Source of the DNA: Bacteroidota bacterium
GTDB taxonomy: Bacteria; Bacteroidota; Ignavibacteria; UBA10030; UBA8401
Direction: 5' to 3'
Assembly (NCBI GenBank): GCA_027622375.1
Contig: JAQCAB010000007.1
Span: 1 to 64,000 of the forward strand
DNA length: 64,000 bases
In this document: piece by piece, positions 12,259 through 21,799 of the stretch
Layout of the letters: every line of letters starts with the position of its first letter
Position numbering within the stretch: the stretch's first letter is position 1
Translations under genes and position numbers: made by a program
Notes under the pieces: generated by a model
What the model saw: only the letters and a program-made list of their open reading frames with translations
Told to the model about the DNA's origin: nothing
Database searches by the model: none

Positions 12259-14850
12259 TTATTTTACAACAAAATTCACAAGTTTATTTTTAACAATAAT
12301 TTCTTTTACAATTATTTTATTTTCTAAATGCTGTTTTACATTTTCTTGTTCAATTGCAAGTGATTTTAATATTTCTTCCGGGCTATCAAATTCAACATTT
12401 AATCTTCCTCTAATTTTACCATTGACTTGAATTACAACTTCAGTTTTAGTTAGAAGAATTTTTGAAGAATCATATTTTGGCCAATTTGCTTTTGAAATAC
12501 TTTCATTATTGCCGAGTAATTCCCAAAGTTCTTCTGCAATATGTGGTGCAAATGGATTTAATAAAATTAAAAATTCCTTTAAGAAATATTTTGGAAAAGA
12601 ATTTAACTTCATTACTTCGTTCAAATAAATCATTAATTGTGAAATTGCAGTATTAAATCTTAACGCTTCGATATCTTCCTGAACTTTTTTGATTGTAAAA
12701 TGATGAAGCCTTTCAAATTCTGAAGATACTTTTTCATCACTTAATTTTGGATTTAAAGCTCCATCTTCATTTATAAATAATCTCCAAGCGCGATTCAAAA
12801 ATCTAAAAACTCCTTCAACACCATGCATATTCCAAGGTTTTGAATCTTCAAGTGGGCCCAAAAACATTTCAAATAATCTTAAAGAATCAGCACCATATTT
12901 ATTAATTACTTCATCTGGATTAATAACATTACCGCGAGATTTTGACATTTTACGAGAATCTTCTCCTAAAATAATTCCCTGATGACGCAACTTCATAAAA
13001 GGTTCAGTTGTATTTACATGCCCCAAATCAAATAAAATTTTATGCCAAAATCTTGCGTACAACAAATGCAAAACCGCATGCTCTGAACCACCGATATATA
13101 AATCGACCGGCATCCAATAATCCATTTTATTTTTTGAACAAAATTCATTTTTATTTTTTGGATCAAGATATCTTAAATAATACCAGCATGAGCCAGCCCA
13201 TTGTGGCATTGTATTTGTTTCTCTTCTTCCTTTCAATCCGGTTTTTTTATCTACAACATTTACCCAATCTTTAGCAAGTACAAGTGGAGAATCAGTTGTT
13301 CCACTCGGTTGGAATTTTTTTAAATCTGGTAAAGTTAAAGGCAACTCATCAATTGGAACTGTAATTTGAATTCCATTTTCTAAATTAATAATTGGGATTG
13401 GTTCTCCCCAATATCTTTGTCGCGAAAAAACCCAATCACGCAATTTATACATTTCAGATTTTTTTCCAATTTTATTTTGTTCAAGCCAATTTATTATTTT
13501 TAATTTTGCATCATCAGTTTTTAAATTGTTTAAAGAGATTTCTTGATTTGATGAATTAATATTTATTCCATCTCCTTCATAAATTTCTTCATCACTATTT
13601 GATTCAACAACTTTAATAATTGGCAAGTTAAAAGTTACTAAAGTTACTGCAAATTCGTTATCACGTTTATCATGCCCCGGGACTCCCATTATTGCCCCGG
13701 TTCCGTAATTAATTAAAACATAATCTGCGACAAAAATTTTTATTTTTTCTTTTGTGCATGGATTAATTGCATTTGCGCCGAGATAGACTCCGGTTTTTAT
13801 TTTTTCAGTTCCCCTCTCTAAATCCGATTTTAGAGATGCAGTTTTTAAATATTCTACAACTTTATTTTTTTGAGACTGAGAAGTTAAATTTAATACAAGT
13901 GGATGCTCGGGAGATAAAACCATAAAAGTTGCGCCAAAAATTGTATCTGGACGAGTTGAATAAACTTCAATTTCATCAATAGAATTTTCAACTTTAAATT
14001 TAATAAAAGCCCCATCCGATTTTCCAATCCAATTTTTTTGCTGTTCTAATGTTGATATTGGCCAATCAATTAAACTCAAATCATTTAATAATCGATCTGA
14101 ATATGCTGTAATTCTCATCATCCACTGCCTCATTGGTTTTTTTACAACCGTGTAACCCTTTTCTTGCCACTCAGCAACTTCCTCATTTGCTAAAACAGTT
14201 CCCAAACCTTCGCACCAGTTTACAGGGATTTCTGCAACATAAGCCAATCGAAAATCATTTAGAATATTTTGTTTTTCAAGTTGACCTTTTGTTTTCCACT
14301 CATCTTTAGTAAAATTATATTTTGTAAAATTATATAATTTTGATGTACCATAATTTTCAAATTCAGAAATTAAAGTTGAAATATTTTTTCCCTTATGATC
14401 TCTTTGATCAAACCAAGAATTATAAATTTCCAGAAAAATCCATTGAGTCCATTTAAAATAATCTGGATCAGCAGAACTTATTTCACGATCCCAATCGTAT
14501 GAAAGTCCAATTGATTTTATTTGACGACGGAATGTATTTATATTTTCATTTGTAGTAATGCTCGGATGAATATTTGTTTGCATCGCATATCTCTCAGCCG
14601 GCAAACCAAATGCATCCCAACCCATTGGATGTAAAATATTTTTTCCTTTTAAGCGCATATATCTGCAATAAATATCTGTTGCAGTGTATCCTTCGGGATG
14701 GCCAACATGCAAACCAGCTCCAGATGGATAAGGCCACATATCCAAAATAAAAAGTTTTTCTTTTTTTGGATCTTCAGTTGCAGCAAAAGAATTATTCTTT
14801 TCCCATAAATCTTGCCACTTTTTTTCAATTTTTTGAAACTGATAACTCAT
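12259..14850 (-). CDS. leuS: Leucyl-tRNA synthetase
   Basis: 863 residues, normal for a bacterial LeuRS. Class I signature motifs are present: HVGHPEGY (HIGH box) near residue 48 and KMSKSRGN (KMSKS) near residue 638. The CP1 editing domain is intact, with STRPDTIFGATF and GTGAIMGVPGHDKRD. The catalytic core and C-terminal anticodon-binding region (HIAEELWELLG, VQVNGKIRGR) are complete. It charges tRNA-Leu in the cytosol. It is 32 bp downstream of the Xer-like gene and begins the run of envelope genes. Confidence 0.97.
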   Translation of the reverse strand: MSYQFQKIEKKWQDLWEKNNSFAATEDPKKEKLFILDMWPYPSGAGLHVGHPEGYTATDIYCRYMRLKGKNILHPMGWDAFGLPAERYAMQTNIHPSITTNENINTFRRQIKSIGLSYDWDREISSADPDYFKWTQWIFLEIYNSWFDQRDHKGKNISTLISEFENYGTSKLYNFTKYNFTKDEWKTKGQLEKQNILNDFRLAYVAEIPVNWCEGLGTVLANEEVAEWQEKGYTVVKKPMRQWMMRITAYSDRLLNDLSLIDWPISTLEQQKNWIGKSDGAFIKFKVENSIDEIEVYSTRPDTIFGATFMVLSPEHPLVLNLTSQSQKNKVVEYLKTASLKSDLERGTEKIKTGVYLGANAINPCTKEKIKIFVADYVLINYGTGAIMGVPGHDKRDNEFAVTLVTFNLPIIKVVESNSDEEIYEGDGININSSNQEISLNNLKTDDAKLKIINWLEQNKIGKKSEMYKLRDWVFSRQRYWGEPIPIINLENGIQITVPIDELPLTLPDLKKFQPSGTTDSPLVLAKDWVNVVDKKTGLKGRRETNTMPQWAGSCWYYLRYLDPKNKNEFCSKNKMDYWMPVDLYIGGSEHAVLHLLYARFWHKILFDLGHVNTTEPFMKLRHQGIILGEDSRKMSKSRGNVINPDEVINKYGADSLRLFEMFLGPLEDSKPWNMHGVEGVFRFLNRAWRLFINEDGALNPKLSDEKVSSEFERLHHFTIKKVQEDIEALRFNTAISQLMIYLNEVMKLNSFPKYFLKEFLILLNPFAPHIAEELWELLGNNESISKANWPKYDSSKILLTKTEVVIQVNGKIRGRLNVEFDSPEEILKSLAIEQENVKQHLENKIIVKEIIVKNKLVNFVVK

Positions 14851-14882: not shown

Positions 14883-15770
14883 TTAATTGTAGTAATTTAA
14901 AGCAGTTTTAAGCTTTCCAATTCTAAATTTTTTTTGTAATTCTTCAGGCTTCATTCCATTTGTGGCATAAATTTTTGCAGCAGCATGACGAAGTGAGTAT
15001 GCAGTAATATTTAATTTTTGTTTTTTCTTTAAATTTGCATTTTTAAGATGCATATTTATTCTTTCTCTAATTCCTCTCGATGTCATTCTTTTACCACGAG
15101 TTCTATTACCAGCGCTCATAAATAATGGCTCATCATCATTTGCATATCTTCGATAAGCGAGATAATCTTCTATTGCTTGTTTTACATCTTTTTGAATTTC
15201 AATAACAGATTCTTTTTTTAGTTTACCTTTACTTTGCACAAAAAGAAAAGTTTTTTTTTCAACATTTTTATAATCACCAATATTTGCTCTTACAAGTTCA
15301 ATTTCTTGCAAACCTGCAAATAAAATTAATTTTGATAATGCAAAATCTCTGTAGCCTCGTTCATCAGTTTTTATAATTGAATTTACATATTTATCAATTT
15401 CATTTTGAGATAACAAACTTTTATTTATAGTTACTGACTTAACATATGCTTTAACTTTTAATGCAGGATTTTCGATGATAGTTCCGTTATGAGTTAAAAA
15501 ATTAAAAAATTGTCTGAGTGCAGTTAAGTAAGTTGAAACAGAATTTGGTGCTAATTTTTTAAAACTAGTTAAATAAAGCTTATATTTTTCAACATCTTCA
15601 ACTTTAAATTGAAAATTTTTATAGCTTTTACTCCAAACTAAAAATTCACGAAGTGATCTTTTATAAGTGCCAATAGTTTCCAGAGAGCGATTTTTTAAAC
15701 TTTTCAGAAAAAGATTGTAAGGTTCATCAAATATAAATTTATTTATTACTGGTTTTTTTACTTTCAACAT
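14883..15770 (-). CDS. Xer-family tyrosine recombinase with degenerate catalytic site
   Basis: 295 residues with the two-domain plan of XerC/XerD: a SAM-like core-binding domain (about 10-110) and a catalytic domain (about 120-295). Aligned by eye to XerD, the first catalytic Arg is replaced (AGLQ, Gln155), the His of HxLR is Tyr258, and the GH motif reads G-Lys286. The beta-hairpin Lys (SKGK, Lys181), the second Arg (Arg261) and a nucleophile-position Tyr293 remain. The protein stops two residues after that tyrosine. It may bind DNA without normal strand exchange, or use an altered chemistry. It is transcribed towards leuS and has no mobile-element neighbours. Confidence 0.8.
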   Translation of the reverse strand: MLKVKKPVINKFIFDEPYNLFLKSLKNRSLETIGTYKRSLREFLVWSKSYKNFQFKVEDVEKYKLYLTSFKKLAPNSVSTYLTALRQFFNFLTHNGTIIENPALKVKAYVKSVTINKSLLSQNEIDKYVNSIIKTDERGYRDFALSKLILFAGLQEIELVRANIGDYKNVEKKTFLFVQSKGKLKKESVIEIQKDVKQAIEDYLAYRRYANDDEPLFMSAGNRTRGKRMTSRGIRERINMHLKNANLKKKQKLNITAYSLRHAAAKIYATNGMKPEELQKKFRIGKLKTALNYYN

Positions 15771-15870
15771 TATTTGAAATTACCGAATGGAGATCGGATA
15801 AACAAATATCAAAATAAATAGGTTTATTTTTTAAAACAATTTATTGCAGTTAAAACTAAATAGAATTATA

Positions 15871-20759: not shown

Positions 20760-21799
20760 ATGCAAACCTTTTTTCAATCAAGAATGTGGAAAGTTTTATT
20801 GGTTACTTTTTTAATGATTCTTCCAATTGTTATTTTAGCGCAATTTACGCAAGTGTTTTTAATTTTAGTTCTCTCATTCGCTTTTACAATAGTTTCAAAA
20901 CCAATTATTGATAAACTTGAAAAGAAAAAAATTAGCCGAACAATTTCTATTTTACTTTACTTTTTATTTTTAGGAAGTATACTTGGCACTTCTGGAATTT
21001 ATTTATTCCCGATGTTGATTGACCAAATTAAAAATATATCTGAAATGTTACAGGGTGATAAATTAGATAAATTAATAGCCTCTCTAATTCTTTCAATCCA
21101 ATCTTTTTTACCTTTTATAAATTCAACAGAAGTTTCAAGTAATATCAAATCAGCAATAGAATCATCTCAAGTTAATTCCCTTTCGATGGCGGCAACAATT
21201 ATCGAAATAGTTTTAACTTTGGTTCTTGTCCCCTTAATATCTTTTTTTCTTTTAAAAGATTATTACAAAATGCAAAAATTTATAATTGAAAAAGTATCAA
21301 ACAAATATTTTGAAATGGCTTTAAATATGATTTATAAATTGGAACTGCAATTAACAAAATATATTCAAGGTGTTGTTACAGAATCTTTCATCGTTTCAAT
21401 CTTATACGGTATTGGATATTGGATGATTGATATCAGATATGCTTTTATTTTAGGATTAATTGGTGGCATATTTAATATTATTCCTTTGCAGGTCCTTTTA
21501 TTGCAGCAATCCCAGTTATATTTTCATCGGTGTTGCAGTTTGATGACTTAAGAATGTTGATCCCAATTTTAATTATAAATTTGATCGTTCAGCAACTTGA
21601 TGAAATTGTAATTCAACCAAATGTTTATGGTAAAATTTTACATATGCATCCACTCGTAATTATTTTAGCAATTTTAATTGGAAATGAATTAATGGGAATT
21701 ATGGGGATGATTTTAGCTATTCCAATTTACACAATTATTTCAGTTACAATTAAAGAAACAAGTTGGGGATTATTAAATTATAAAATTACAAGATTATAA
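20760..21799 (+). pseudogene. AI-2E family (PerM-like) transporter, frameshifted
   Basis: Two overlapping frames together encode one 346-residue AI-2E family membrane protein. The first runs from ATG 20760 and goes out of frame after GGIFNIIP; the second carries the rest (FDDLRMLIPILIINLIVQQLDEIVIQPNVYG, with the family's QxLE-like and P-x-V-x-G motifs). Adding one base to the TTT run at 21485-21487 restores IIPFAGPFIAAIPVIFSSVLQ, which fits the family. This is therefore a single one-base deletion or a homopolymer sequencing error; all other sequence looks intact. Members export various small molecules or act as ion antiporters. Confidence 0.85.

Follow-up and report, generated by a model that had tools for sequence, protein, structure and literature searches.

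What becomes of a tyrosine recombinase that has lost three of the six residues of its active site? The question is raised by xer*, a gene in the window, by which we mean the whole stretch of 64,000 nucleotides of Bacteroidota DNA analysed here. The initial annotation had described a Xer-type recombinase and had offered three explanations: that it became a DNA-binding protein, that it serves other Xer proteins as a partner subunit, or that it works by altered chemistry. We argue that the product, Xer*, very probably does not recombine DNA, and that it is, on balance, likely to be a retired recombinase, kept as a sequence-specific DNA-binding and probably autoregulating protein.

Fold and active site of Xer*

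The gene is an open frame of 295 codons with an ATG start and zero internal stops. It adjoins leuS and its chain stops two residues past Tyr293, just as had been described. Genome, locus and family handles are our own, f1 being the window's own family.

14883..15770, minus strand: xer*, encoding a 295-aa protein of the tyrosine-recombinase fold without Arg I, the HxxR His and the GH His (domain search, alignments, model)
12259..14850, minus strand: leuS, directly downstream of xer* in the same direction, an order kept in f1, f5 and f10 relatives (ORF list, loci comparison)

The domain search found Phage_integrase (Pfam, E 1.3e-14) and SAM-like N-terminal domains, and together with the predicted model it assigns to Xer* the tyrosine-recombinase fold with a SAM-like N-domain and a catalytic domain. 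Profiles of E. coli XerD (1a0p, E 9e-21) and XerA (5hxy, E 1e-17) match, and the scores against NCBIfam XerC (94.5 bits, cut-off 335.15) and the XerD equivalog (89 bits, cut-off 329.6) fall below the cut-offs. Since Xer*-like proteins score as members of the phage-integrase family, their annotation as recombinase or integrase is to be expected. PADLOC, run on two family members, gave zero matches, and no description of the family was found in those portions of the open-licence PMC literature that the search covered, including portions of PMC8138268 and PMC3414803.

The AlphaFold2 model of the window protein (pLDDT 85.7, pTM 0.71) has XerA, XerH, Cre and lambda Int as its first neighbours in Foldseek/VIA (VIA Z about 17-20), and the C-terminal domain of XerD is among its near folds. 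The phage proteins SroF of phi3T (Z 14.6-14.8) and MrpR/YopR (Z 13.0-13.4) also match; rmsd values for XerA and MrpR are high (16-18 A), which probably reflects a different arrangement of the two domains. The model of an f44 member without the nucleophilic Tyr (A2; pLDDT 83.7) behaves similarly, with VIA Z of about 15-20 to Xer, Cre and lambda Int and 12.8-15.7 to SroF and MrpR. As a separate observation, the sole match of a single-query PDB search with Xer* was chain 14 of 9i5v, a chain of 401 residues labelled RaiA, the first 280 of which align to Xer recombinases, as if a Xer protein were fused to a ribosome-hibernation factor; no paper on it was found in the open-licence PMC literature.

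Profile alignment to XerD and XerA and a multiple alignment give Xer* the active site Q-K-Y-R-I-Y, not R-K-H-R-H/W-Y.

15306..15308, minus strand: codon 155, Gln at the catalytic Arg I position (profile and multiple alignment)
15228..15230, minus strand: codon 181, beta-hairpin Lys, kept (multiple alignment)
14997..14999, minus strand: codon 258, Tyr at the HxxR His position (profile and multiple alignment)
14988..14990, minus strand: codon 261, Arg II, kept (multiple alignment)
14919..14921, minus strand: codon 284, Ile at the GH His position (profile alignment)
14892..14894, minus strand: codon 293, Tyr nucleophile position, kept (profile and multiple alignment)

Thus, the alignments bear out the earlier reading of Gln155 and Tyr258 as losses and of Lys181, Arg261 and Tyr293 as kept. 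The third loss had been placed at Lys286; the His of the GH dipeptide is indeed gone, but its place is Ile284, nine residues before Tyr293, because the dipeptide of XerD and XerA aligns to Arg283-Ile284, two residues away from the earlier assignment. An alignment of orthologues had been proposed as a check, and in it the losses recur but the letters vary: position 155 is Gln in the window, His in the sister genome and Ser in 27/30 members of f1 and f5, in which position 258 may be F, Y, L, H or V and position 284 I or L. In the order Arg I / Lys / HxxR His / Arg II / GH His / Tyr, the residues of three groups are as follows; "Rhodothermales-like" is our own label for the second large group, whose rows were picked by residue pattern, so that its T41 is partly by choice.

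f1/f5, 30 rows: S27 Q1 H1 T1 / K30 / F11 Y8 L8 H2 V1 / R29 C1 / I18 L12 / Y30
Rhodothermales-like, 41 rows: S36 G3 T1 A1 / K41 / H41 / T41 / H41 / Y37 S4
f25/f40/f52, 11 rows: S6 R4 T1 / K10 N1 / H9 N2 / R8 Q3 / H11 / Y11

The combination S-K-H-T-H-Y occurs in 33 Rhodothermales-like rows, and f1/f5 have S-K-F/Y/L-R-I/L-Y. The nucleophile itself is missing in seven of the eight f44 rows (L184, L188-L191, L193, L196 and L197; Tyr in L197 only), is replaced by Ile in the f10 rows L192, L194 and L195, where most catalytic residues are gone, and is Ser in four Rhodothermales-like rows. It is evident that the further losses after Arg I differ, being both His in the window's order, Arg II in the Rhodothermales-like group and Tyr in f44 and f10. 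Since each lineage lost different residues, no one chemistry is common to all groups, and a protein freed from the need to cut would be expected to show such scattered losses, with Arg II and Tyr among them. These different remnants open the order of loss to study.

Spread, descent and selection of the family

Xer* had protein matches at E<=1e-20 in 37/98 genomes of the window's order, that is, in 20/22 genomes of f1, 17/21 of f5 and 0/55 of the other families. A search with an alignment of 22 members (A1), in which scoring was limited to the top six candidates of each genome, gave one match each in 84/395 genomes sampled across the phylum (E<=1e-40), one of the 84 being an intact integrase. 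Named relatives come from Ignavibacteriae/Ignavibacteriales and Bacteroidota MAGs, Longimonas halophila, Rubrivirga sp. and other Rhodothermales. The xer* family is thus old, mostly single-copy and phylum-wide, not one odd gene.

When the six catalytic columns were removed from a 129-row alignment, 109 rows still formed one clade on a long stem (SH-aLRT 99), with intact integrases of Spirosoma, Segetibacter, Fibrella, Clostridium and others (among L071-L079) as the nearest outgroup. Arg I is absent in 105 of these 109, which is more than chance, and the Arg I label requires two changes on the tree; at least one of the six residues is missing in 108 rows, and all six are present in one. The quick tree flags long branches, among them L182, L186, L184 and outgroups, so that we draw nothing from its finer branching order. 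Fragments, duplicates and near-duplicates (L004, L027, L028, L035-L042, L048-L055, L057, L058, L063-L065, L068-L070, L115-L122 and L187) were left out of it, and the weak matches L082-L114 out of both alignment and tree; the ten-row intact outgroup of the residue comparison included one odd row, the family member L074. In f40, four rows have Arg I, namely L166 (g140) with all six residues and three sisters with Gln at Arg II, and this Arg may have been retained or regained.

The dN/dS of xer* (NG86), calculated for 28 pairs hand-picked among close relatives, was finite in 22 (0.037-0.444, median 0.10) and had saturated dS in 6. Within the window's genus, at 65% identity, it is 0.35, and 14 neighbouring genes range from 0.115 to 0.396 (leuS 0.167, recA 0.116, pgsA 0.341, cinA 0.310). 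Here and below, gene names that do not come from Pfam, such as pgsA, pgpA and cinA, are our presumption. Purifying selection holds on xer*. That the gene is simply decaying, which had been doubted from the start, is hardly credible: the value in the window's genus does exceed those of leuS and recA, but pgsA, pgpA and cinA next to it have similar ones, the frame has zero stops, and the losses recur in distant relatives under purifying selection. With orthologues that lack an intact RKHRHY set as well, we regard decay as refuted.

The window's genome has four Phage_integrase matches, of which xer* scores 57 bits and the three others (L001-L003) 138-167 bits with R-K-H-R-H-Y; at least one further integrase besides xer* was present in 20/20 carrier genomes tested. 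In the window xer* lies 32 bases upstream of leuS, amid genes which we take to be leuS, an msbA-like gene, a ribosomal-protein gene, cinA and recA, and no mobile-element genes were seen adjoining it. Where both genes were called, leuS follows xer* on the same strand in 25/36 named loci, with a gap of more than 500 bases in four of the 25 (in L063 due to an intervening NlpE-domain gene), and f10 keeps this order despite its proteins' loss of most catalytic residues. Such chromosomal neighbours, and an order kept across families, do not fit a prophage-encoded gene. Rhodothermales-like genomes often have xer* behind an E2 acyltransferase gene and near secA, and the Tyr-less f44 members have E2 or secA as neighbours; across groups, xer* has no fixed partner gene. 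We also observed that the Tyr-less L188-L191, L193 and L196 (f44) and L192, L194 and L195 (f10) keep the gene and mostly its neighbours. Elsewhere in the window, a permease gene, presumably AI-2E/PerM-like by its sequence, apparently lies in two overlapping frames (20760-21551 and 21530-21799, plus strand), owing to a frameshift or an assembly error.

The promoter word and the putative recognition segment

A short word, CYGTTATTG on either strand, is present upstream of xer* in 47/108 members against 4/596 control windows of other genes from the same loci, and shuffling gave a mean of 0.4 and a maximum of 4 in 200 rounds. The upstream windows run from -220 to +20 and come from related sequences, so that they are not independent; controls that overlapped the xer* promoter or ran off the locus were dropped, L074 was left out of the 108, and some distances may be off as ORF starts were set mechanically. 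The commonest 9-base word in the 108 windows, CCGTTATTG, occurs in 33, and the next non-overlapping word reaches 9. At 80% protein identity the word is present in 30/77 clusters, and the Fisher value that goes with this count treats related sequences as if they were independent. By group, it was found in 14/29 of f1/f5 (7 more have the reverse CCGTTATGR), 32/41 of the Rhodothermales-like group and 1/14 of f8/f11/f13/f19/f21, and in 0/11 of f25/f40/f52, 0/8 of f44, 0/3 of f10 and 0/2 of f30. Words of their own for f8-f21, f25/f40/f52 and f44 were only ones common to few or close relatives. Upstream of intact recombinases the word was found in 0/19, L076 offering 21 bases only to inspect.

In f1/f5 the word directly follows a promoter-like pair, TTG-N18-21-TnnnTT, i.e. 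it stands right behind the -7 element, and in the Rhodothermales-like group the TTGAC of a -35-like element is often part of it. Four members of that group (L147, L154, L159 and L164) have a second copy that ends in TTGCA or TTGCG and is not -35-like. Since the word takes two different promoter places in the two groups, one promoter element does not explain it. The corresponding elements in the window are:

15776..15782, minus strand: TAATTTC, putative -7 element of the xer* promoter (upstream comparison)
15803..15805, minus strand: TTG, putative -33 element, 20 bases upstream of TAATTTC (upstream comparison)

Directly downstream of the -7 element, relatives have CTGTTATTG or CATAACGG, which is degenerate in the window, where AAATA stands between TAATTTC and ATG in place of the word. 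At that place the sister genome reads CGATAACTG, which is two letters off the reverse form, and the exact word was not found at the xer* promoter within the window's own genus. This speaks against autoregulation in this very species or reflects a drifted site. As a side observation, genomes of genus g1 (G000, G001) measure about 1.7 Mb, while the others of f1 have 2.9-4.5 Mb, and the exact xer* promoter word is missing in this genus.

Genome-wide, CCGTTATTGAC has 11 matches in 8 genomes (6 at xer*) and TTCTGTTATTG 19 matches in 6 genomes (4 at xer*). The long word is thus at xer* in 10/14 genomes searched, and in 7/14 that is its single match; matches elsewhere need no explanation, because one or two chance matches per genome are expected of an 11-base word. 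No wider regulon was found in the 14 genomes, where long-word matches away from xer* are mostly inside genes, nor was a dyad common to genera among the upstream inverted repeats of 14 members.

The protein itself offers a candidate reader of such a word.

15054..15116, minus strand: residues 219-239, near-invariant Arg-rich segment, putatively for DNA recognition (conservation; XerD alignment and known Cre contacts)

No stretch of A1 is more conserved than these residues (SAGNRTRGKRMTSRGIRERIN), and R223, R228, R232 and R235 are at 100% both in f1/f5 and in the Rhodothermales-like group. They precede HxxR in the alignment to XerD, and Cre residues at the corresponding position touch bases. In L001 and L003 the counterpart of this putative recognition segment is different. 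Letters of the segment that seemed tied to presence of the word involve few independent changes and were not counted as evidence.

Alternative readings and known systems

How, then, may Xer* work? A host-owned, vertically inherited integrase descendant would have given up strand cleavage and been kept as a sequence-specific DNA binder, most likely a transcriptional regulator. The Arg-rich segment 219-239 would read DNA, and Xer* itself rather than another regulator would bind CYGTTATTG at its own promoter; binding would repress, as the word lies across the -35 or the -7/start region, and further targets may exist. Retirement is suggested by lineages that lost different residues, including Arg II and Tyr, while the protein stays under selection. 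Of the three explanations offered at the outset, the turn to a DNA-binding protein is the best supported, by losses that are old and varied among lineages, by purifying selection and by the near-invariant segment, though the binding is so far a prediction from sequence. More tentatively, these proteins may be phylum-scale chromosomal transcription factors, descended from an integrase that lost Arg I and then, in scattered fashion, the rest, and that kept the segment and the own-promoter word in at least two classes; they would be autoregulated and non-cutting, with about one strong exact-word site per chromosome, and may be landmark binders as well as repressors. The promoter word makes the idea of autoregulation testable.

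The word may instead be the site of another regulator or a part of the promoter, with Xer* binding DNA elsewhere and not autoregulated. We hold this possible but rather doubtful. What speaks for autoregulation is position alone, the word is not recognisable in the window's genus, and in Rhodothermales-like genomes it overlaps the TTGAC of the -35-like element; however, it takes two promoter places in two groups, has a second copy outside any such element in four genomes, and is rare elsewhere. Less probable still is that Xer* goes on recombining or nicking DNA through a rearranged active site, in which another Arg serves for Arg I. Arg I loss alone does not prove inactivity, since the CTnDOT integrase does without the first Arg and owes its activity to another one, and in IntDes Arg I is shifted and the His replaced by Tyr (PMC8138268). 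This precedent is what lends weight to altered chemistry, a proposal that we nevertheless consider unlikely. As an enzyme would, f1/f5 keep Lys181 (30/30), Tyr293 (30/30) and Arg261 (29/30), R223 is a gain compared with many intact relatives, and the four f40 rows have Arg I, one of them with all six residues. On the other hand, Arg II, both His or Tyr were lost by different lineages, which leaves no common chemistry, R161, which lies close to the lost Arg, occurs in intact relatives too and is no newcomer, and mobile-element genes are not seen beside the window gene.

A non-catalytic partner of XerC/XerD at dif, in line with the partner subunit proposed initially, is very improbable. Heteromeric Xer systems exist, and the C-terminal domain of XerD is among the near folds; but the genome has other integrases with all six residues, the putative recognition segment is unlike those of L001 and L003, and in the 14 genomes searched the long word occurs mostly at xer* or inside genes, without a wider set of sites. 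The partner proposal finds no support.

The retired, DNA-binding recombinase that we favour has its closest counterpart, in our best reading, in the phage protein MrpR, to which Xer* would be a chromosomal analogue. MrpR has the recombinase fold without Arg I and the His, keeps Lys and Tyr and has been shown to be a repressor, its Tyr being important both to its stability and to its binding of DNA (PMC10516654). Xer* has the same pattern of fold, lost catalytic Arg and His, and kept Lys and Tyr. Both MrpR/YopR, the master repressor of the Bacillus phage SPbeta, and SroF of phage phi3T, which is named a repressor in its PDB title, have the full tyrosine-recombinase fold in common with Xer*, at 11-15% identity to their structures. 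In contrast to MrpR, which binds a repeated prophage element, Xer* is chromosomal in a large bacterial group, and the long word of its promoter is nearly unique per genome. IntDOT and IntDes resemble Xer* by description, in that the first Arg is absent or shifted and IntDes has Tyr for His, but they are integrases of other subgroups and IntDOT keeps an alternative Arg (PMC8138268). In the Xer* family Ser is usual at position 155, and R223 is a candidate for a gained Arg of the IntDOT kind. With XerC, XerD and XerA, Xer* has fold, domain order and profile match in common but not the six-residue active site. The intact integrases of Spirosoma, Segetibacter, Fibrella and Clostridium, nearest to it on the tree, share an ELIRANIGD-like stretch and a similar Arg/Lys-rich segment with Xer*; they differ in having all six residues and no word at the promoter.
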